Shown here: positions 50,654 to 59,655 of the stretch, piece by piece
Numbering within the stretch: the stretch's first letter is position 1
Layout: each line of letters starts with the position of its first letter
DNA from: a bacterium
GTDB lineage: Bacteria; Verrucomicrobiota; Verrucomicrobiia; Verrucomicrobiales; Akkermansiaceae
Assembly: GCA_018222765.1 (NCBI GenBank)
Contig: JAAEZT010000004.1
Location: 1-64,000 of the forward strand
Direction of reading: 5' to 3'
Length of the DNA stretch: 64,000 bases
The notes under the pieces: model-generated
The model's database searches: none
The model's input: only the letters and a program-made list of their open reading frames with translations
Told to the model about the DNA's origin: nothing
Program-made: the position numbers and the translations under genes

Positions 50654-52117
50654 CTAGAGGATCTTTGCCTTGAGTGCGTCGGTGGCAAGCTTGGGGTTGG
50701 CCTTGCCTTTGGAAGCTTTCATGACTTGGCCGGTAAGAAAGTTGAGGAGCTTTTCATTTCCGCCCTGGATTTCGGCGACTTTGTCGGGGTTGGAGGCGAT
50801 GACTTCATCGACGATGGCATCAATGGCTCCGCTGTCGGCTGGTTCGAATCCCATTTCCTTGGCGAGAGTGGCAGGGTCCTTTTCCGGAGTTTCCCAGAGG
50901 GCGGCGAAGAGATCCTTGGCTTGGCTGTTGGAAATGGTGCCTGCTTCGATGAGATCAAGGATGCCTCCAAGGGTTTTGGCGGTGATGGGCGAATCGGAAA
51001 TCTCGAGCGACTTTTCGTTAAGGAGGCCGAGGAGATTGTTGATGATCCAGTTCGCGATTTTCTTGCCGGGAGCTTTAGTGGATTCCGCGGCTCGTTCAAA
51101 GTAGCACGCGAGATGGACGTCGGAGGTGATGACCGAGGCGTCGTATTCGGTGAGACCGAGGTCGGCTTGGTATCGGGTGGACTTTTCGTGGGGGAGCTCC
51201 GGAACAAGCGGTCGAACTTTTTCAATATAAGCAGCGGTTGTTACCGGGAGAAGGTCAGGGTCAGGAAAGTAACGGTAATCATGCGCGTCCTCCTTGGTTC
51301 GCATTTCCTGGGTTTCTTCAAGCTCGTCACTCCATCGACGGGTCGACTGCACGAGTGGCTCGCCGGTATCGAGGGCTTCGCATTGGCGGGCTACTTCATA
51401 GTGAATGGCGCGGCGCACGGCGGAGGTTGAGTTCATGTTCTTGAGCTCGATTTTGGTGCCAAGCGGGTCGCTCTCGTTTTTTCGAACCGAGATGTTGACG
51501 TCGCAACGCATCTGACCTTTTTCCATGTCGGCATCGGAAATGCCGCCGGCGATGAGGATCTGCTGGAGTGACTTGAGATAAGCAAAGGTTTCCTCGGCCG
51601 AGGCGATGTCGGGCTCGGAGACGATCTCCATGAGAGGTGTGCCGGCGCGGTTGAAGTCGATGAGGGTGGAATTGGCAAGGTGGGTCGACTTGGCAACGTC
51701 TTCCTCAAGGTGAATTCGGTTAAGTTCCACTACCTTGCCGGGATTGACGATATTTTTCTGAGCGTCCTTGGGGTAGGTATGCGAGTAGAGGGGCACGCCG
51801 CCACCGAGGCAGAGGGGAAGATCCATTTGAGTGATCTGGTAGTCTTTGGGCATGTCGGGATAGAAGTAGTTTTTCCGGTCCCAAACGACAGTCGGAGGGG
51901 TGGAACAACCGAGGAGCATGCCGGAGAGAATGGTGCGTTCGATGGCAAATTCGTTGAGAACGGGGAGTGCGCCGGGCAGGCCGAGACAGGTCGGGCAGGT
52001 ATGGGTGTTCGGTTCGTCGGCGAAGGAAGTTTCGCAGCCACAGAACATCTTGGTGTTCGTTTTGATCTGGCAGTGAACTTCGAGTCCGATGGTGACGATA
52101 TAGTCTGAAACAGGCAC
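50654..52117 (-). CDS. gatB: Asp/Glu-tRNA amidotransferase subunit B
   Basis: GatB carries out the amidotransferase step, converting Glu-tRNA(Gln) or Asp-tRNA(Asn) with GatA and GatC. The 487-residue protein has the N-terminal hallmark TIGLEVHCQI, zinc-type cysteines C26, C28, C41 and C44 (FCGC..CPTC), the LNRIHLEEDVA and DFNRAGTPLMEIVSEPD blocks, and a C-terminal YqeY-like helical tail ending in KPL-type regions (LTGQVMKASKGKANP). gatA and gatC are not in the window. A decayed second copy of its 5' region sits 3.9 kb further on (56003-56200). Confidence 0.97.
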   Translation of the reverse strand: MPVSDYIVTIGLEVHCQIKTNTKMFCGCETSFADEPNTHTCPTCLGLPGALPVLNEFAIERTILSGMLLGCSTPPTVVWDRKNYFYPDMPKDYQITQMDLPLCLGGGVPLYSHTYPKDAQKNIVNPGKVVELNRIHLEEDVAKSTHLANSTLIDFNRAGTPLMEIVSEPDIASAEETFAYLKSLQQILIAGGISDADMEKGQMRCDVNISVRKNESDPLGTKIELKNMNSTSAVRRAIHYEVARQCEALDTGEPLVQSTRRWSDELEETQEMRTKEDAHDYRYFPDPDLLPVTTAAYIEKVRPLVPELPHEKSTRYQADLGLTEYDASVITSDVHLACYFERAAESTKAPGKKIANWIINNLLGLLNEKSLEISDSPITAKTLGGILDLIEAGTISNSQAKDLFAALWETPEKDPATLAKEMGFEPADSGAIDAIVDEVIASNPDKVAEIQGGNEKLLNFLTGQVMKASKGKANPKLATDALKAKIL

Positions 52118-52212
52118 GGGGGGATCTAAGCGGGAAAATCGAAAATCGAAAATCCTAAATCGCGGCCACTTGCGATTCCTTGAAACGGTGGCCAGCTCGA
52201 AGTTTGACGGTA
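52118..52212. other. gatB upstream region with short direct repeat
   Basis: This 95-base region between the PEP-CTERM gene and gatB contains three near-copies of AAAATCG (52137-52158) and a GGCCAC/GTGGCC pair at about 52163-52192 with an 18-base loop. No T-tract follows. It probably holds the gatB promoter. Confidence 0.35.
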
Positions 52213-52860
52213 TTAACGCCGACGGCGCATCAGACCGAGGCTGGCGAGTCCAAGTAAAGCGATGCTGCTGGGTTCCGGGATGGCAGTGGCGAGGGTATAG
52301 CTGATGGGGTCGGAAACATCTCCAGCGCCAGCGTCAGTCCAAATGAGGATGTCGAAATCAGGGTCGTCAAAGACATTTGAGCCATCTTCATTAAAAGTAA
52401 TATCGAGTGAAATGGCCCACTCTTTCTGAGCGACATCACCGGAGGATGAAATCAGAGCAGCTCCAGACCCAAAGAAATCGCCGCTCATTCCAAGGCCATT
52501 ATTGAAAGCTCCGGTGCCGTTTGTGAAGGGGAAATCATTTTGCCAGGAAGCCTCTACTCCGACCAAGCCAACTGAAAATATATCGAAACCGGTTGCGGTA
52601 TTGCTGTCCGAATCGATGGAGATGAACGTGGGAGCTGAGAGGGTGTTTGGATAGGTGACTGAAATATAGAGGAAATTATCGTCATTGGCGATTTGGACAT
52701 TCCCGATATCGACGGAACCCGCGTTGTCTCCTCCGTCGGCACTCAGCACTGGAACTCCTGCCCATTCTGCGAAGCTGCCATCAACAGTGGCAGTGAGGAA
52801 AGTTCCGGCTTGGGCATTCGAGCCAAGAAGAGCGGCGATGAGGCAGAGAGATTTTTTCAT
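52213..52860 (-). CDS. PEP-CTERM secreted protein with a CBM9/DOMON-like domain
   Basis: A 215-residue secreted protein. The N-terminal signal (1-18) is followed by a domain that starts TATVDGSFAEWAG and contains VQIANDDNFLYISV and IDSDSNTATGFD. The same pattern (xVDGxFxxWxGI, ANDxxFLYxR, FIDxDxxxxTGF) occurs twice in the next gene, so the two share a domain type, similar to CBM9/DOMON folds. The C-terminus IPEPSSIALLGLASLGLMRRRR is a complete PEP-CTERM sorting signal: PEP, hydrophobic segment, basic tail. An exosortase is required and is not in the window. It is probably exported to the surface or exopolysaccharide. Confidence 0.88.
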   Translation of the reverse strand: MKKSLCLIAALLGSNAQAGTFLTATVDGSFAEWAGVPVLSADGGDNAGSVDIGNVQIANDDNFLYISVTYPNTLSAPTFISIDSDSNTATGFDIFSVGLVGVEASWQNDFPFTNGTGAFNNGLGMSGDFFGSGAALISSSGDVAQKEWAISLDITFNEDGSNVFDDPDFDILIWTDAGAGDVSDPISYTLATAIPEPSSIALLGLASLGLMRRRR

Positions 52861-52885: not shown

Positions 52886-55800
52886 TTATTCTAGAACTTT
52901 GAGCCTGAGAAAGAAACGTATATTTTCAGAGATTATAGAATTATGCCGAATTTCGACTCGTTCGAAACCATTTCCCAAATCAGTGAGTGAGACTTGGGTG
53001 AACGCATTAGGATCATCATCCCAGCTCAATAGATCACCGGAAGTCTCGATTAGGAAAGTGAGCCCGCTTCCGGCAATTCGGTCATATCGGAGGCCGGGGT
53101 AGTCTTGCCCTCCATCGGAAATGATGATGCCTTGTGGGAGTTTTTCCGGATCGGAGAGCAGCGGGATCATTCCCAGAGCAAACTCTAACAAGTTTCCCGC
53201 TCCATCCAAATCAGGATCGGCAAAATCACCGCTGATAGTTGGATCTGCAAGTTGGGCCGGGGCAAACTGCTCGGTTTTCCAAAGTTCGTAGACAGTGTTT
53301 GGTCCCGCGAAGGAAAATTCTACGCCCGAATCACCTGCGAGAGAATCACCTCGGTTGTCTTGAAGAAGAAGGCGAAGCGTTTCTCCGGGGCTGTCGAAAA
53401 CTGGAAAGATATCTGCATAAAGAGCGGTGCGGGAGATTCGAAATTCAAAGTCCTGCGCATTGCCAGTTGGTGAAATTGCCCAATCGAGACCGCTGATTGC
53501 GCCTTCGTTGAATCCTCCGTTTCGTTGGTCAAACCCATTTCCTGATTCAACAAAAGCCTCAGACCCAAAAGAGGAGGCGGTTGGAGTGAAGCCAGTCGCG
53601 GGGCTCCCGTCGGTGTCGATGAAAAGGTGCGTATTAAAATCCGAAAACGGAGCAGCAGAACTGTGCAGCGTAAAACGTCCGTAGAGAAATTGGTTGTCGT
53701 TTGCGAAGAAGACATCTTTAAAGTCGATAGCCTTTCCTGTGGATGGGAGGCTGAGCTTCGGGGAGATCCCGGCCCAATCAGAGAGGTCACCATCGATGAC
53801 GATATTCGCGAAAACCGCGGCGGGAGGGGCAGCCGGATCTTCCTCGATGATGTATTCGAAACCTTCGACGCCTGAGATTTCATCGTTTCGATTATCTTGG
53901 AGCAGAAGCCTGATTGTCTGTCCGGAAAAGATCGGAGTGGAATCTGGAAAGAGAGCGTCCAGTGAAACTCTAATCTCAAATTCGTTGGCTGGTCCGGCGG
54001 GGCTTAACTGCCAACCTGTTCCTAAAATTGAGCCTTCGTTGAATCCTCCATTTCGCTGATCGAAACCATTCCCGAGTTCGATCATGAACTCCGATCCGAA
54101 ACCAGAAGTTGGCGGGATGAATCCGGTTGTATTATTGTTGTCGGAGTCGATGAAAAGGTGCGTGTTGAAATCCGAAAACGGACTCGCAGAGTTCGCCAGA
54201 GCGAAGCGCAGGTAGAGAAAATTGCCATCATTCGCGACCCAGATGTTTGTGAAATCCACTGGAGTCCCTTCGGCTGGATCTTCAAAGCGCGGAGTGATTC
54301 CGTCCCAGTCTGTAAAATCCCCATCGATGCTGATCGTTGCAAAATCACCTCCCAGTTCTGCTTTTGGGGTGGCCGTCAAAATGGTCGTGTTACTGTCTTC
54401 GTTGGAAGGACTTGCGCTGTCTTCCGCGCGCACTGCGAACAAATAGACTTCTTCATTTTCCAAACCGGTGACGGTGGCTTCATATGCATATTTACCAGTG
54501 CCAGTTCCGGACAGATAGGACGATGGGGTGCTCGTGACAATATTGCTCAACTTGGTTGCGGTGTTAAAATCAAGGGTTGCGAAATCGGTGTAGTATATAT
54601 GATAGCGGATCGGACCGGTTTGATCACGGGCGACATCCCAACGCAATGTCACGGCGCCATCGAGAGCCTCGACTTCTTGCAAGCCGACTCTGGCGACCGG
54701 CGGTTGATTGCCCGGCGTCGCGAAATCAGAGTCGGCGGATGTGGCGGCAGTGCTGTCCCAAACGGGAGCATTGCTGTCTGTATTAAGATCCACCCACAAT
54801 TCGGCTTCGTTGTTGAATGGTGTATTGAGTAAGCCGTTTGTCCGATAGAGTGGCCATCCCTGGATCTGCATGGATTCGATGAAATCCTGATCCTTCACCG
54901 ATTGGGGAATGCTGATTGGATGATCATAGCCCAGACTGAAGATTGTGAATCCGTCCGTACGATTTGCTTCGGCATTGAGCTTGGGTGCCCAGTTGAATTT
55001 ATTGTCGTCGAAAAACGGACTGAAAGAATTCACGTCACTACTATCGGTATAGTAGCTCTCGAAGAGGATGGCATTCAGGTAAGGTCTCAAGGTGAATTCA
55101 TATTGCTTGAGGTTGGGGTTGTAGAAAAAGATGCCGCGATTTCCGAGGATGAGCTTGTTAGGATAATCGGTGCTGATGTTTTGCAGCAGAGTTTGAAATC
55201 CCGGAGCGGTCCATTCGAAGAGAGTAGCGCCGAAGCTGTTCGGCGCGGGTGTGTCGAGGGTATCAAGGAAAACTCCGTCACATCCGTAGCCATTCCCTTC
55301 AGTGGTCGTGAGGATTTCTTGCAAGCCCGATGCTCCATCGACATCTTTTTCATTGTTTAAGATCACCTGATACCATGCGGGATCACCGGCATTGACGAAG
55401 GGGCCTCCAAAGATGGAGTTGGTATCCGGTTGGCCGTCGGGGGTGGTGTCATCGAGGTAGTAAGAGGCAAATCCTGTGCCATTTGGCGAAGCATCTCCGA
55501 GAGGATTGATGCCAGCCAGCGCTTCGGCATCTGACGACCTCGGATCCACCCGGGGTCCACTGCCATTGCCCACGACGGGCGCGGCGGTTCGATCATCTTC
55601 GCCAACTGAGATGTAGGCCACGACCAGAACATCATCGCTTGTCCCTGCGATGTTGTCCGTGCCACGTTTGATTTGTGCAATGTCGGTAGCAGTGATGTTG
55701 CTGACGGGATGTAGAATTACGAGCTGATAGTTAGTTCGGGCAAGCTCGACTTGAGCGGGGCTCCAATTGCCATAGTAAATGAGATAAGGTGTTGTCGTGT

Positions 55801-55888
55801 TGATTCCCGGAATTGGTCCACGTTGGGCGACTGCATTGAGTATCAGAGAGGACAAAAATGTCAGAGCGAGGAATGGAAAACGAAACAT
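52886..55888 (-). CDS. Secreted GH114-like hydrolase with FN3 and two CBM9/DOMON-like repeats
   Basis: About 1000 residues. I use the ATG at 55888, giving a signal peptide (MFRFPFLALTFLSSLILNAVAQ); an ATG 18 bases upstream also works, and an open frame continues into a gatB remnant. Residues about 25-370 form a GH114/spherulin-4-like TIM barrel (YLIYYGNWSPAQVELA, LVVAYISVGEDDR, GCDGVFLDTLD); known relatives cleave galactosaminoglycans. A fibronectin III domain follows (ALDGAVTLRWDVARDQ, about 415-510), then two repeats of about 155 residues, nearly identical in parts (FSDFNTHLFIDSD or TD, NGFDQRNGGFNEG), and a C-terminal module ending IRFFLRLKV. A fragment of its domain pattern recurs in the PEP-CTERM neighbour. 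Confidence 0.82.
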   Translation of the reverse strand: MFRFPFLALTFLSSLILNAVAQRGPIPGINTTTPYLIYYGNWSPAQVELARTNYQLVILHPVSNITATDIAQIKRGTDNIAGTSDDVLVVAYISVGEDDRTAAPVVGNGSGPRVDPRSSDAEALAGINPLGDASPNGTGFASYYLDDTTPDGQPDTNSIFGGPFVNAGDPAWYQVILNNEKDVDGASGLQEILTTTEGNGYGCDGVFLDTLDTPAPNSFGATLFEWTAPGFQTLLQNISTDYPNKLILGNRGIFFYNPNLKQYEFTLRPYLNAILFESYYTDSSDVNSFSPFFDDNKFNWAPKLNAEANRTDGFTIFSLGYDHPISIPQSVKDQDFIESMQIQGWPLYRTNGLLNTPFNNEAELWVDLNTDSNAPVWDSTAATSADSDFATPGNQPPVARVGLQEVEALDGAVTLRWDVARDQTGPIRYHIYYTDFATLDFNTATKLSNIVTSTPSSYLSGTGTGKYAYEATVTGLENEEVYLFAVRAEDSASPSNEDSNTTILTATPKAELGGDFATISIDGDFTDWDGITPRFEDPAEGTPVDFTNIWVANDGNFLYLRFALANSASPFSDFNTHLFIDSDNNNTTGFIPPTSGFGSEFMIELGNGFDQRNGGFNEGSILGTGWQLSPAGPANEFEIRVSLDALFPDSTPIFSGQTIRLLLQDNRNDEISGVEGFEYIIEEDPAAPPAAVFANIVIDGDLSDWAGISPKLSLPSTGKAIDFKDVFFANDNQFLYGRFTLHSSAAPFSDFNTHLFIDTDGSPATGFTPTASSFGSEAFVESGNGFDQRNGGFNEGAISGLDWAISPTGNAQDFEFRISRTALYADIFPVFDSPGETLRLLLQDNRGDSLAGDSGVEFSFAGPNTVYELWKTEQFAPAQLADPTISGDFADPDLDGAGNLLEFALGMIPLLSDPEKLPQGIIISDGGQDYPGLRYDRIAGSGLTFLIETSGDLLSWDDDPNAFTQVSLTDLGNGFERVEIRHNSIISENIRFFLRLKVLE

Positions 55889-56002: not shown

Positions 56003-56200
56003 CACCGAAGCAGAGGGGAAGATCCATTTGAGTGATCTGATAGTCCTTGGGCATGCCGTGGAATTTGGTGCGCTCGATGGCGAATTCGTTGATAACGGTG
56101 AGTGCGCCGGGTAGGCCGAGACAGGTCGGGCAGGTGTGGGTGTTGGGTCCTTCGGTGAGAGAAGTTTCGCGGCCGCAGAGCGTCTTAGTGTTGGTTTTGG
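56003..56200 (-). pseudogene. gatB: Decayed gatB fragment
   Basis: On the minus strand this stretch reads as the N-terminal part of GatB. The translation KTNTKTLCGRETSL continues through PNTHTCPTCLGLPGALTVINEFAIERT, joins directly to MPKDYQITQMDLPLCFG, and then stops. It matches the intact gatB of 50654-52117 closely (roughly 80-85 percent by eye), but one zinc-type cysteine is replaced by Arg, about 26 residues are deleted between the two parts, and the start and the following 420 residues are missing. It cannot make a working subunit. It also explains the spurious N-terminal extension of the GH114-like reading frame. Confidence 0.85.
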
Positions 56201-56277
56201 GGTATTGAACATTTCGATTTTCAATTTGCCCGCCTAGTTCTCCCCACTGACTTGCGTTTCTTCAAGGTGGGACCATG

Positions 56278-56682
56278 CTACCGCATGCTCTGACTAATTG
56301 GTAAAGCTGCCGAGAAGAAATCCGGTCGGATTGTCCTCGGTGTAATCGTGTTGGTAATTGTCGTCTTGATCGTGAAAAGCAAGACGGGCAGCGAAATAAG
56401 CCAACAAAAGCCGGAAGGGAACCTTCCCTTGGCGAACACGTATACTGGTGCCGAAGCCTCGGGAGCGATGCTGTTCGATGCGTGATTCCCAGAAGTCGCG
56501 GGTATTTTCCGGCCCGATATTTCCAAAAGGACGACTTTGTCCTCAGAGCTTTTGTCAGATATCAGGTTTGGGCCGTTTGAATGGTCACCCCAGCAAGTTT
56601 CTTGGACCCTCACTGCGTTCACCGGCCGAGCGGCAGAGAGAAGGAAAACCAGCGGGAGAAAGATTCTGTGATAACAATCTCC
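56278..56682 (-). pseudogene. Possible degraded secreted thioredoxin/TlpA-like gene
   Basis: On the minus strand, just after the stop of the heme protein, a frame encodes RIFLPLVFLLSAARPVNA, a clear signal-peptide core, then VQETCWGDHSNGP and SSEDKVVLLEISGR, as in TlpA-like redoxins where the CxxC would follow. There is no ATG; only GTG codons inside the signal. The next helix (DFWESRIEQHRSRGF) is found in another frame, so a frameshift is likely. The catalytic CxxC is not visible. An alternative on the plus strand at 56301-56485 (KSGRIVLGVIVLVIVVLIVK) looks like a membrane segment. I hold the redoxin reading as tentative. Confidence 0.35.
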
Positions 56683-59655
56683 TCATTTTTTCAGCGGCAC
56701 TTGTTGTGGGTGCATGAGATAAGCGATGAGGTCGCGGATTTGCCGGGGGGTGAGGGAGCTGAGTAGGCCTGCGGGCATGATGGAGCTGGGAAGTTGTTTC
56801 GTTTCGGCGACCCCGGATTTTTCGAGGGTGGTTTCTTGGGAGAGACTGCGCAGGGTGACAGTTCGCTCCGTGGAAGAGGCGATGACTCCGGTGAGAGAGC
56901 GACCGTCTTTCAGTTTGAGAATGGTCATACGGTATTCGGAGGGAACGACGGCGCTGGGATCTACGATATTTTCCAACAAGTAGCCGAGGTCGGCGCGGCC
57001 GGAGCCGGTAAGGTCGGGGCCGAGTTTGCCGCCTTCGCCGTATAGGATGTGACAGGTAGCACAGAGATTTTGGAAGAGGACACGCCCGGCTGGGAGATCG
57101 GCTTTGTCGCGGAAGTCTTTGCCGAGAGCTTGATGAAGTTCTTCGATGCGTTTCTTTTTGGCGGCATCGGATTGGCGAAGGTCGCCCCAGACTTCTTTGA
57201 GGCGGGCGGTGAGCTTCTCATCGTTCAAGGCGAGGGCCTGACGGGCGTGAAAGGGCGTGAGATCGTTGCGCGGGATAATGGTATCTTTGATTTTGGAAAG
57301 GAGGGCGTCGGCCCAGGCGGGTCGCGCGACGATAACATTCATCACGGTGCGTTTTTCATCAGGTCGAAGATTGGGGTAGTGATTGAGGAGCGTCTTCGCG
57401 ATGGCGGGATCGTCGAAGGTGGCGAGCCCGCGGATGGCGGTTTTGTTGAGGTAGCGGACTCGAAGAAGCTTTTCGCAAATGGTGCGGAGATCGTCAGGGC
57501 GGGCATCGATGAGGCCCTGTAGTGCGGTTTGGCGGTCGTCGAAGGCCGCGTTGTTGTCGAGGGCGATCTTCTTCAGGGAATCCATGGCGCGACCATTGCC
57601 GAAGAGTACGGAAAGATCGCGGATGAGCTCGGGGTTGTCGGCGGAAAGTTTGTCGACGGCGGCGGTCCAGTTTTTCGGAAGGGGAGCTTTTCGCCAGCCT
57701 TTGAAGCCCTCGGTAAGTCCCTTGAGGATGTGCGAAGCTTTGGAGGGTTGCTTGATGGCGAGGTCGATGATGGCGTCTGGATTCGGTGCCAGCGCGCGGG
57801 AGATGTAGCGAAGAAGGTCGGGCCACTCGGTGGCTTCGGCGACATCGATGAGTTTGTCGGGATGGTCTTTGAGAAGCGGAGTGAGTCCGAACCAGATGAG
57901 CTTGGGAAGGTTGTGGTCGTCCGCGGAGTCTCCTATTGCAAGAGTTGCTGCCACTGCTGCCCTTCTTTCAAGGGGGATCCTTTGAAGAGCAGAGGCGATT
58001 GTGAGCTTCGCGGGTAAAGTTGGTCTCGCACCAGCGACTTGAAGTAGGAAAGGAATCGCTGACATCGACTCGGATGAGGCTTGCGGGTGAGGGCCGTAGA
58101 CGTGATCGATGGGGAAAGAATCGGTGATGATTCTTAAGGTCCATGCCAGCGTGTGATTGTCTTCAGTTGTGAGAGACAAGACCGCCTTGATTGCCTCGAC
58201 GTGAGAGAGTTCGTTCAGCGCCCAAAGAGCACGTAGGCGGGTCACCGTGTTCTCCGACATGCTTAGGGTTTTGGCTTTTTCGATCAGTTTTGGATCCGCC
58301 TCGATGATCCGCCTCGCCTGCCGCTCATACCATGCGTTGGGGTGCTTGATGATTTTGTCGAGCTTGTCGGCATCGATGTTTTGAAGAAGATGAAGGTCCG
58401 ACTGCGGTGTTTTGCCGTGCGAGAAACGATAGATTCTTCCGGAAGTTCGGTGCACACCGGTGTGGTCGTGGCATTCGCCGGTATCGGACCAGTCGAGGCC
58501 GTAGAGGGCGCCGTCAGGTCCGGTGCGAATGTCGAGCCCGCGGAACCATTTGTCGCCGGAGATCATAGCGTCGGGTTCGTGGCGGGCGACGTATCCGCTG
58601 CCCTGCCGTTCGAGTCGTTCGACATTGAGGCGTTTACCGTGTTGGTTCCAAGTGAGGAGTTTGCCGTTCCAGTATTCGGGAAGGTGTCCGCCTTGATAGA
58701 TGCACATCCCGATGTGGGAGTGGCCGCCGCCGAAGTCGTTGGCGGCTCCGTTACGGGATTTGGTCCAACTGCCAGCGCGATCGAAGTGCCAGTGGTCGGC
58801 GTGCATTTGAATGGGTTCGAAGACGAGCTTGTTGGGTGAGGGCGCGAAGGGACGTTCGAAGTGGGCGCCGGGAATCATGTGCCAGAGGTGTCCGTTGACA
58901 GTGTTGATATGGAAAAGTTCGCCGTGTTTATCCCAATCGTGCCCCCAGGGATTGGTCGTGCCGTGGGTGAGGACTTCGAAGGTCTTGCGGTCGGGATGAA
59001 AACGCCAGATGCCTCCCTCGATAGGAACGCGTTGGGCTTCGGTCGACCCGGGAACGCCGACATTGCCGGGGCAGGATCCTCCGCAGCGGCCGTAAAGCCA
59101 ACCATCGGGGCCCCAGCGGAGGCCGTTGGCAAAGTTGTGGTAGTTGTTCTTGGCGACGGTGAAGCCATCGAGAACGACTTCGGGTTTGCCATCGGGAATA
59201 TCGTCCTTATTGCGGTCGGGAATGAAGAGGAGTTGTGGAGGGCACATGGCCCAAACCCCGCCGCGTCCCAGTTCGACGCTGGTGAGCATCTGCAGCTTGT
59301 CGGTGAAGATCTTGCGGGTGTCGGACTCTCCGTCGTGGTCTTCGTCGTGAAGAATGATAATGCGATCGCGCAGATTCAGGTCGAAGCGCCTCCCTCGCTC
59401 GGCGTAGGTGTAGTTTTCGGCGACCCACATACGCCCTTTGTGATCCCAGGTCATCGCGATGGGATTCTGGACCTCGGGCTCGGCTGCCAAGACGGTCACC
59501 TGAAATCCCTCGGGGAGTTTGAATGAGGCGGCCGCTTCTTCGGGAGAGGGCGGGTTGGCGGTCTTGTCTTTTTCGCTGTTGTAGGGTGTGGGGAATTCAG
59601 CGGCGGTGAGAAGGGAGGCCGAGAAAGCGAGGAAAGTGACGATACCGGAAGTCAT
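56683..59655 (-). CDS. PVC-type membrane-bound dehydrogenase-like protein with cytochrome c domain
   Basis: A 990-residue secreted protein of a family abundant in Planctomycetota and Verrucomicrobiota. A signal peptide (1-18) is followed by a six-bladed propeller of the glucose/sorbosone dehydrogenase look (LPEGFQVTVLAAEPEVQNPIA, WDHKGRMWVAENYTY, GPDGWLYGRCGGS; about 40-420), a HEAT-like helical region (about 430-820) and a C-terminal cytochrome c domain with C865-ATC-H869. The last part, LKDGRSLTGVIASST, is a beta-barrel common to such proteins. A sugar or alcohol dehydrogenase that passes electrons to its own heme is the common guess. It neighbours sulfatases and the partial paralog at 63475. 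Confidence 0.9.
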   Translation of the reverse strand: MTSGIVTFLAFSASLLTAAEFPTPYNSEKDKTANPPSPEEAAASFKLPEGFQVTVLAAEPEVQNPIAMTWDHKGRMWVAENYTYAERGRRFDLNLRDRIIILHDEDHDGESDTRKIFTDKLQMLTSVELGRGGVWAMCPPQLLFIPDRNKDDIPDGKPEVVLDGFTVAKNNYHNFANGLRWGPDGWLYGRCGGSCPGNVGVPGSTEAQRVPIEGGIWRFHPDRKTFEVLTHGTTNPWGHDWDKHGELFHINTVNGHLWHMIPGAHFERPFAPSPNKLVFEPIQMHADHWHFDRAGSWTKSRNGAANDFGGGHSHIGMCIYQGGHLPEYWNGKLLTWNQHGKRLNVERLERQGSGYVARHEPDAMISGDKWFRGLDIRTGPDGALYGLDWSDTGECHDHTGVHRTSGRIYRFSHGKTPQSDLHLLQNIDADKLDKIIKHPNAWYERQARRIIEADPKLIEKAKTLSMSENTVTRLRALWALNELSHVEAIKAVLSLTTEDNHTLAWTLRIITDSFPIDHVYGPHPQASSESMSAIPFLLQVAGARPTLPAKLTIASALQRIPLERRAAVAATLAIGDSADDHNLPKLIWFGLTPLLKDHPDKLIDVAEATEWPDLLRYISRALAPNPDAIIDLAIKQPSKASHILKGLTEGFKGWRKAPLPKNWTAAVDKLSADNPELIRDLSVLFGNGRAMDSLKKIALDNNAAFDDRQTALQGLIDARPDDLRTICEKLLRVRYLNKTAIRGLATFDDPAIAKTLLNHYPNLRPDEKRTVMNVIVARPAWADALLSKIKDTIIPRNDLTPFHARQALALNDEKLTARLKEVWGDLRQSDAAKKKRIEELHQALGKDFRDKADLPAGRVLFQNLCATCHILYGEGGKLGPDLTGSGRADLGYLLENIVDPSAVVPSEYRMTILKLKDGRSLTGVIASSTERTVTLRSLSQETTLEKSGVAETKQLPSSIMPAGLLSSLTPRQIRDLIAYLMHPQQVPLKK

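Follow-up and report, generated by a model that had tools for sequence, protein, structure and literature searches.

The cps island of the meningococcus is proposed to have arisen by illegitimate insertion into a housekeeping gene, which left a truncated galE2 remnant, while the intact copy of the gene is carried on the island itself (PMC5349592). Homology-facilitated illegitimate recombination is a process which has also been applied to Vibrio T6SS modules (PMC5361080). The locus described here, which lies within a window of 64,000 nucleotides (the whole stretch of DNA that was analysed), resembles the galE2 case in that an island entered a resident gene, gatB, a truncated remnant was left behind, and an intact copy is believed to have come with the island; as with galE2, what is left of the gene groups with the allele that preceded the insertion (PMC5349592). 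The two cases differ in scale and layout, since the meningococcal cps island measures 24 kb and is associated with an inverted repeat, whereas the insert at gatB is 3.9 kb long, the copies are in direct orientation, the 5′ part of the gene was kept and the remnant has been shredded by deletions. With homology-facilitated illegitimate recombination the locus would share one homologous end, one illegitimate joint and displaced resident sequence (PMC3240628), as judged here from the product. As in the merodiploids that follow transformation of Streptococcus pneumoniae, a partial duplication flanks the new DNA and the essential gene is intact; the pneumococcal duplications, unlike that at gatB, span approximately 100 to 900 kb and make use of repeats (PMC3784515). 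The gatB stub is an ordinary displaced-gene remnant produced by a known kind of event, for which the comparative evidence is unusually good.

The gatB remnant and its counterparts in related genomes

The gatB product belongs to the amidotransferase by which Gln/Asn-tRNA is completed. Its intact copy occupies positions 50654 to 52117 of the window (minus strand). A 198-base stretch 3.9 kb away and in the same orientation, which the earlier note had taken to be derived from gatB, was confirmed as such, with homology that extends, after refinement of its bounds, from 56199 to 56003 (minus strand) and corresponds to gatB nt 54 to 202 and nt 269 to 316. Two blocks were aligned on the minus strand (56199 to 56051 against gatB 52064 to 51916, 84.6% identity over 149 nt, and 56058 to 56003 against gatB 51857 to 51802, 92.9% over 56 nt), with a local alignment score of 238.5 compared to a maximum of 34 among 200 shuffles. 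As the blocks overlap by 8 nt within the fragment, the in-frame loss comes to 66 nt (22 codons), which refines the figure of about 70 bases given previously. The gatB frame is open throughout the fragment, as had been stated, and the lost cysteine is Cys28, now arginine, one of 13 replaced residues. A dispersed-repeat origin, which the earlier note had named as grounds for rejecting its reading, was ruled out, as the intact gatB is the sole other match of the fragment in the 4.3-Mb genome.

The fragment has diverged by 13%, with changes distributed 9/4/13 over the three codon positions, in contrast to 5/2/55 between the intact gatB genes of this genome (G000) and of a same-genus relative, G001; dN is 0.105 for the stub versus 0.006 for intact gatB in the G000-G001 comparison. 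Constraint on the stub is relaxed, and its significant match to the gatB of its own genome, its lost coding constraint and its position in the lineage of the intact gene are those of a gatB pseudogene.

A search of 27 same-genus genomes yielded three that were informative. G014 possesses the uninterrupted site, consisting of flank, leader and gatB, in which the upstream flank (window 56657 to 56244, 81% identity) runs directly into the gatB leader; the native flank at 56246 to 56680 of the window is, accordingly, continuous with gatB in this relative. G014 lacks at this site the fragment and both the GH114-like and PEP-CTERM genes that separate the two gatB copies in the window, which bears out the earlier proposal that these genes were brought in by the rearrangement. 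The synteny comparison that the earlier note had suggested extends to G001, a metagenome bin (TMED86, NHEN01000135.1), which harbors the same 3.9-kb insertion, here termed X, at 95% identity, with an identical stub/X junction (TTTTCAAAAAGCAA) and a remnant of its own. This remnant retains the leader and gatB nt 1 to 18, 271 to approximately 419, and 953 to 986, and the loss of one base has introduced a frameshift.

Because the G001 remnant keeps other parts of gatB, up to nt 986, the ancestral stub ran from the leader to approximately codon 329 (nt ~986), the two lineages having lost different pieces. Description of the fragment as a decayed duplicate of the gatB 5′ region thus stands as regards gatB derivation and decay, but understates the original stub, which comprised about two thirds of the gene. 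Nor does the preserved frame signal a recent event, as the earlier note had supposed: the sister remnant carries a one-base frameshift and other deletions, and substitutions in the window copy are spread over all codon positions, so its open frame is a matter of luck.

In both carriers gatB homology appears to break off sharply against X at nt ~986, and no further copy of X at gatB was found within the gatB loci retrieved from the genus. Direct repeats of 4 to 9 bases are present at four deletion points, GACTAC and CAAG in G001 and CATGC and GCCTCGGTG in this genome, where the 66-nt deletion lies at the CATGC repeat and the 3′ end of the stub was deleted to the insert border at the GCCTCGGTG repeat; the chance of a match of at least 4 nt at a random junction is approximately 0.016 for each. 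A literature search on microhomology in bacterial pseudogenes returned nothing on point. To the remnant proper also belongs, as its 5′ end, a piece of the resident gatB leader of 34 to 42 bases (approximately 56204 to 56245, plus strand), which is inverted in this genome and in direct orientation in G001 and G014.

The locus thus displays the stages of cargo insertion into a housekeeping gene, namely, an empty site, a common junction and a stub eroded independently by two lineages, and provides a clean natural example of how bacteria can acquire genes at an essential locus with no mobile element involved.

Beyond the native flank, a c-type cytochrome gene (56683 to 59655, minus strand) contains a segment of approximately 500 bases (window 57900 to 58450) which is only 55 to 58% identical to G001 and G014, compared to mostly ~80 to 95% in its flanks; this dip reflects either local allele replacement or an alignment gap.

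Probable resident and incoming gatB copies

When the two stubs were placed in a tree with 16 intact gatB genes, both clustered with G000, G001 and G014 at 100/100, and within G000 plus G001 at 87/92. The lineage comparison proposed in the earlier note therefore places the fragment with gatB of its own lineage, and transfer from a distant lineage was ruled out. The stubs carry lineage-specific derived states at 6/7 and 5/8 diagnostic sites. The coding sequence fails to separate donor from resident, the intact gatB being just as close to G014 (96 to 97% in nt 1 to 986), and the tree weakly suggests a position of the stubs with G000 and G001, not with G014. A breakpoint scan of sliding identity along gatB was noisy at the stub end, and the 3′ part of the G014 gene is itself divergent. 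From nt ~1050 onward, gatB of G014 (L055) differs from that of G000 and G001 by 9 to 10%, versus 3 to 4% in the first 986 nt, possibly owing to recombination in G014.

A distinction, to be taken with caution, is offered by the leader of the intact gene (52118 to 52212, minus strand), whose allele differs from the resident leader of the remnant and G014; the insert border lies in or above this leader. The motif CGCAAGT, near position -57, is common to several gatB leaders in the genus, and is followed by CAGTGGTATTTAAC and CAGTGGTATTCAAC in G014 and the G001 stub, respectively, versus GGCCGCGATTTAGG in both intact copies. Two leader haplotypes can be defined on this basis, CAGTGGTATTYAAC being common to the G001 stub and G014 and GGCCGCGATTTAGG to the intact copies, with 8/21 sites differing between positions -57 and -37. 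The GGCCGCGATTTAGG leader is homologous to leaders of other species (anchored shuffles, p of approximately 0.005 or less) and, like that of G011, keeps AGG at a site that reads AAC in the resident type; it is, therefore, not derived from the resident type. Since the intact copy has the leader of another allele, the stub is likely the resident gatB and the intact copy a newcomer, a reading drawn from a short leader difference (21 to 28 nt). Of the two origins envisaged in the earlier note, replacement of an older gatB fits better than recent tandem duplication, since the stub retains its native flank and a leader of the resident type, while the leader of the intact copy is another allele. A further leader motif, GATTTTCGATTTTC, was considered as a recombination repeat and rejected, being found at gatB only.

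On balance, we consider it somewhat probable that the 198-base stretch is the remnant of a resident gatB displaced by X together with the leader and complete gatB of a close relative (leader′ and gatB′), and the best reading of the mechanism is homology-facilitated illegitimate insertion of X-leader′-gatB′ into the resident gene. The common ancestor of this genome and G001 would have taken up DNA consisting of X followed by the leader and gatB of a close relative. The gatB end of this DNA would have recombined by homology, and its other end would have been joined illegitimately within the resident gatB near codon 329, to give the order flank, leader, gatB (nt 1 to 986), X, leader′ and complete gatB′. 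Homologous exchange on the gatB side, together with illegitimate joining at codon ~329, would explain this layout in one step. With a complete gatB supplied by the insert itself, Gln/Asn-tRNA amidation would never have been lost, and the stub would then have been free to decay, the lineages losing different parts through deletions at 4- to 9-base direct repeats and a micro-inversion. The empty site in a close relative that such recombination implies is present in G014, and a donor-type leader is observed on the intact gatB, although the scan for an exchange point within gatB was noisy; the donor, homologous exchange at the right end and uptake by a transformation-like route are inferred.

The same layout, an A-B-X-B-C order, is the expected product of a single crossover involving a circular or sister-chromosome intermediate which carried X and the lineage's own gatB 5′ part (Campbell-like or interchromatid unequal exchange), in which case both copies would be local and no foreign gatB would be involved. 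The coding parts of both gatB copies do fall in one clade, and merodiploids formed by alternative pairing are known (PMC3784515). Such an origin is nonetheless rather unlikely, though it deserves consideration, as the leader of the intact copy is another allele, with the ancestral AGG where resident leaders have the derived AAC, and X is devoid of a replicon, an integrase and terminal repeats. The final layout is also compatible with two events, a tandem duplication of the 5′ two thirds of gatB followed by an unrelated insertion of X between the copies. We regard this as improbable, since in both carriers X occupies precisely the interval from the end of the stub to the leader, and none of the gatB loci obtained from the genus showed the duplication by itself.

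Retention of the fragment for a function, in which it might, for example, serve the GH114-like gene as promoter region or 5′ leader or else regulate gatB as an RNA, would accord with its location 115 bases upstream of that gene, in a region expected to hold the old gatB promoter; this seems very unlikely, as the parts kept by the two lineages are almost non-overlapping, the changes are spread over codon positions and no promoter-like site was found within the fragment. Finally, an assembly artefact is conceivable where genomes are metagenome bins (TMED86), but hardly credible when two separate bins share a junction while differing in their internal deletions and a third has the empty site.

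Insert X and its genes

Returning to the proposed insertion of X-leader′-gatB′, X itself comprises 3.9 kb and two genes, with a GC content of 48 to 53% as opposed to 55 to 60%. Each gene has an open reading frame and shows purifying selection when G000 and G001 are compared. The first (52886 to 55888, minus strand; dN/dS of 0.24 versus G001) specifies a large secreted-type protein with a GH114-like N-terminal half and two repeats. As its score against Pfam GH114 (PF03537) was 12.6 bits, below the gathering cut-off of 27, and its identity to an annotated endo alpha-1,4 polygalactosaminidase was 28% (tblastn), it is referred to as GH114-like only, and the label is to be taken as suggestive. Its best relatives occur at distant GH114-like loci of other Verrucomicrobiota, none of them near gatB. 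The second gene (52213 to 52860, minus strand; dN/dS of 0.16 versus G001) encodes a PEP-CTERM protein that shares homology with the repeat domain of the first gene's product, so that X represents one module; this homology suggests that the PEP-CTERM gene may be a repeat which split off and bears a sorting signal of its own.

No transposase, integrase, replicon or terminal repeats were identified in X, and the associated duplication amounts to approximately 1 kb, unlike the short target duplication expected of a mobile element. Carriage by a plasmid, phage or other mobile element was rejected, as terminal repeats are absent, a single distant plasmid match was obtained and no phage match was found. 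No candidate donor, having X upstream of its gatB, came to light.

A candidate micro-selenoprotein gene in the native flank

The native flank harbors, divergent from gatB, a candidate micro-selenoprotein gene (56285 to 56485, plus strand), whose start reads ATG CTC TGA CTA ATT GGT AAA and which is accompanied by a bSECIS-like hairpin. The micro-ORF is located just upstream of gatB, in divergent orientation, in approximately 10 genomes of the genus, and 27 relatives were detected in six genera among 244 genomes of the family. The in-frame TGA is kept as ATG-NNN-TGA in 26 of the 27, with coding sequence after the TGA; an ordinary start downstream of it was ruled out, as the next codons (CTA, CTC, CTG, CAA, GTG and others) include none that is constant. 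The TGA is followed, at a distance of 30 nt in 24 cases and of 25 nt in 2, by the start of a hairpin with a GGUC loop. It folds at -11.6 to -23.4 kcal/mol, and in a few cases the minimum-energy structure pairs other bases. Across its top five pairs, 98.3% of cells are standard and eight compensatory (two-sided) changes were counted, which was reached in 0/500 shuffles; in G062 and G079 the hairpin is shifted relative to the protein, with loop and stem kept. These values agree with published bSECIS rules (PMC13188914).

Both SelB (272 bits, cut-off 242) and tRNA-Sec (54 bits, cut-off 47) were identified in this genome. Outside the genus, SelB is present in 7/7 carriers of the micro-ORF (G051 included) versus 11/34 non-carriers (p = 0.0014); within the genus, the carrier G009, which is 88% complete, has no SelB above the cut-off. 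The micro-ORF resembles known bacterial selenoproteins with bSECIS elements (PMC13188914), including those of marine sets (PMC1088965, PMC2398784), in its in-frame UGA, its hairpin with G at the start of the loop, its 25- to 30-nt spacing, the presence of SelB and tRNA-Sec in the genome and the UxxC motif found in many family members; it differs from them in its size of ~35 residues, its single predicted membrane helix and a predicted Sec as early as codon 3. Searches of Pfam, NCBIfam and Rfam gave no family that fits the micro-ORF, no clear Cys form was found, and a literature search on tiny bacterial selenoproteins returned nothing on point.

It is, in our estimation, quite probable that the micro-ORF (~35 codons; 66 in this species) encodes a previously undescribed membrane micro-selenoprotein with Sec at codon 3 and a SECIS hairpin conserved in at least five genera of the family, and UxxC in many members would suggest a redox role for the predicted product. 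Selenoproteins of ~35 residues with near-initial Sec are absent from the family libraries used here, and normal annotation would miss such genes because they look like ATG-Leu-stop. If confirmed, the micro-ORF would matter more than the gatB remnant, being the more surprising part of the locus.

In the 27th relative, G051 (L124, match 1501 to 1587), the TGA is located elsewhere, a frame slip is apparent, the hairpin has a GGUA loop and a Cys-containing N-terminus (LCGIVCKAAEK) is read in another frame, which may represent either a Cys form or a decayed gene. The CGCAAGT motif noted above (window 52118 to 52212, at approximately -57 of gatB) sits between gatB and the micro-ORF, and could possibly act as a promoter or operator shared by the two.
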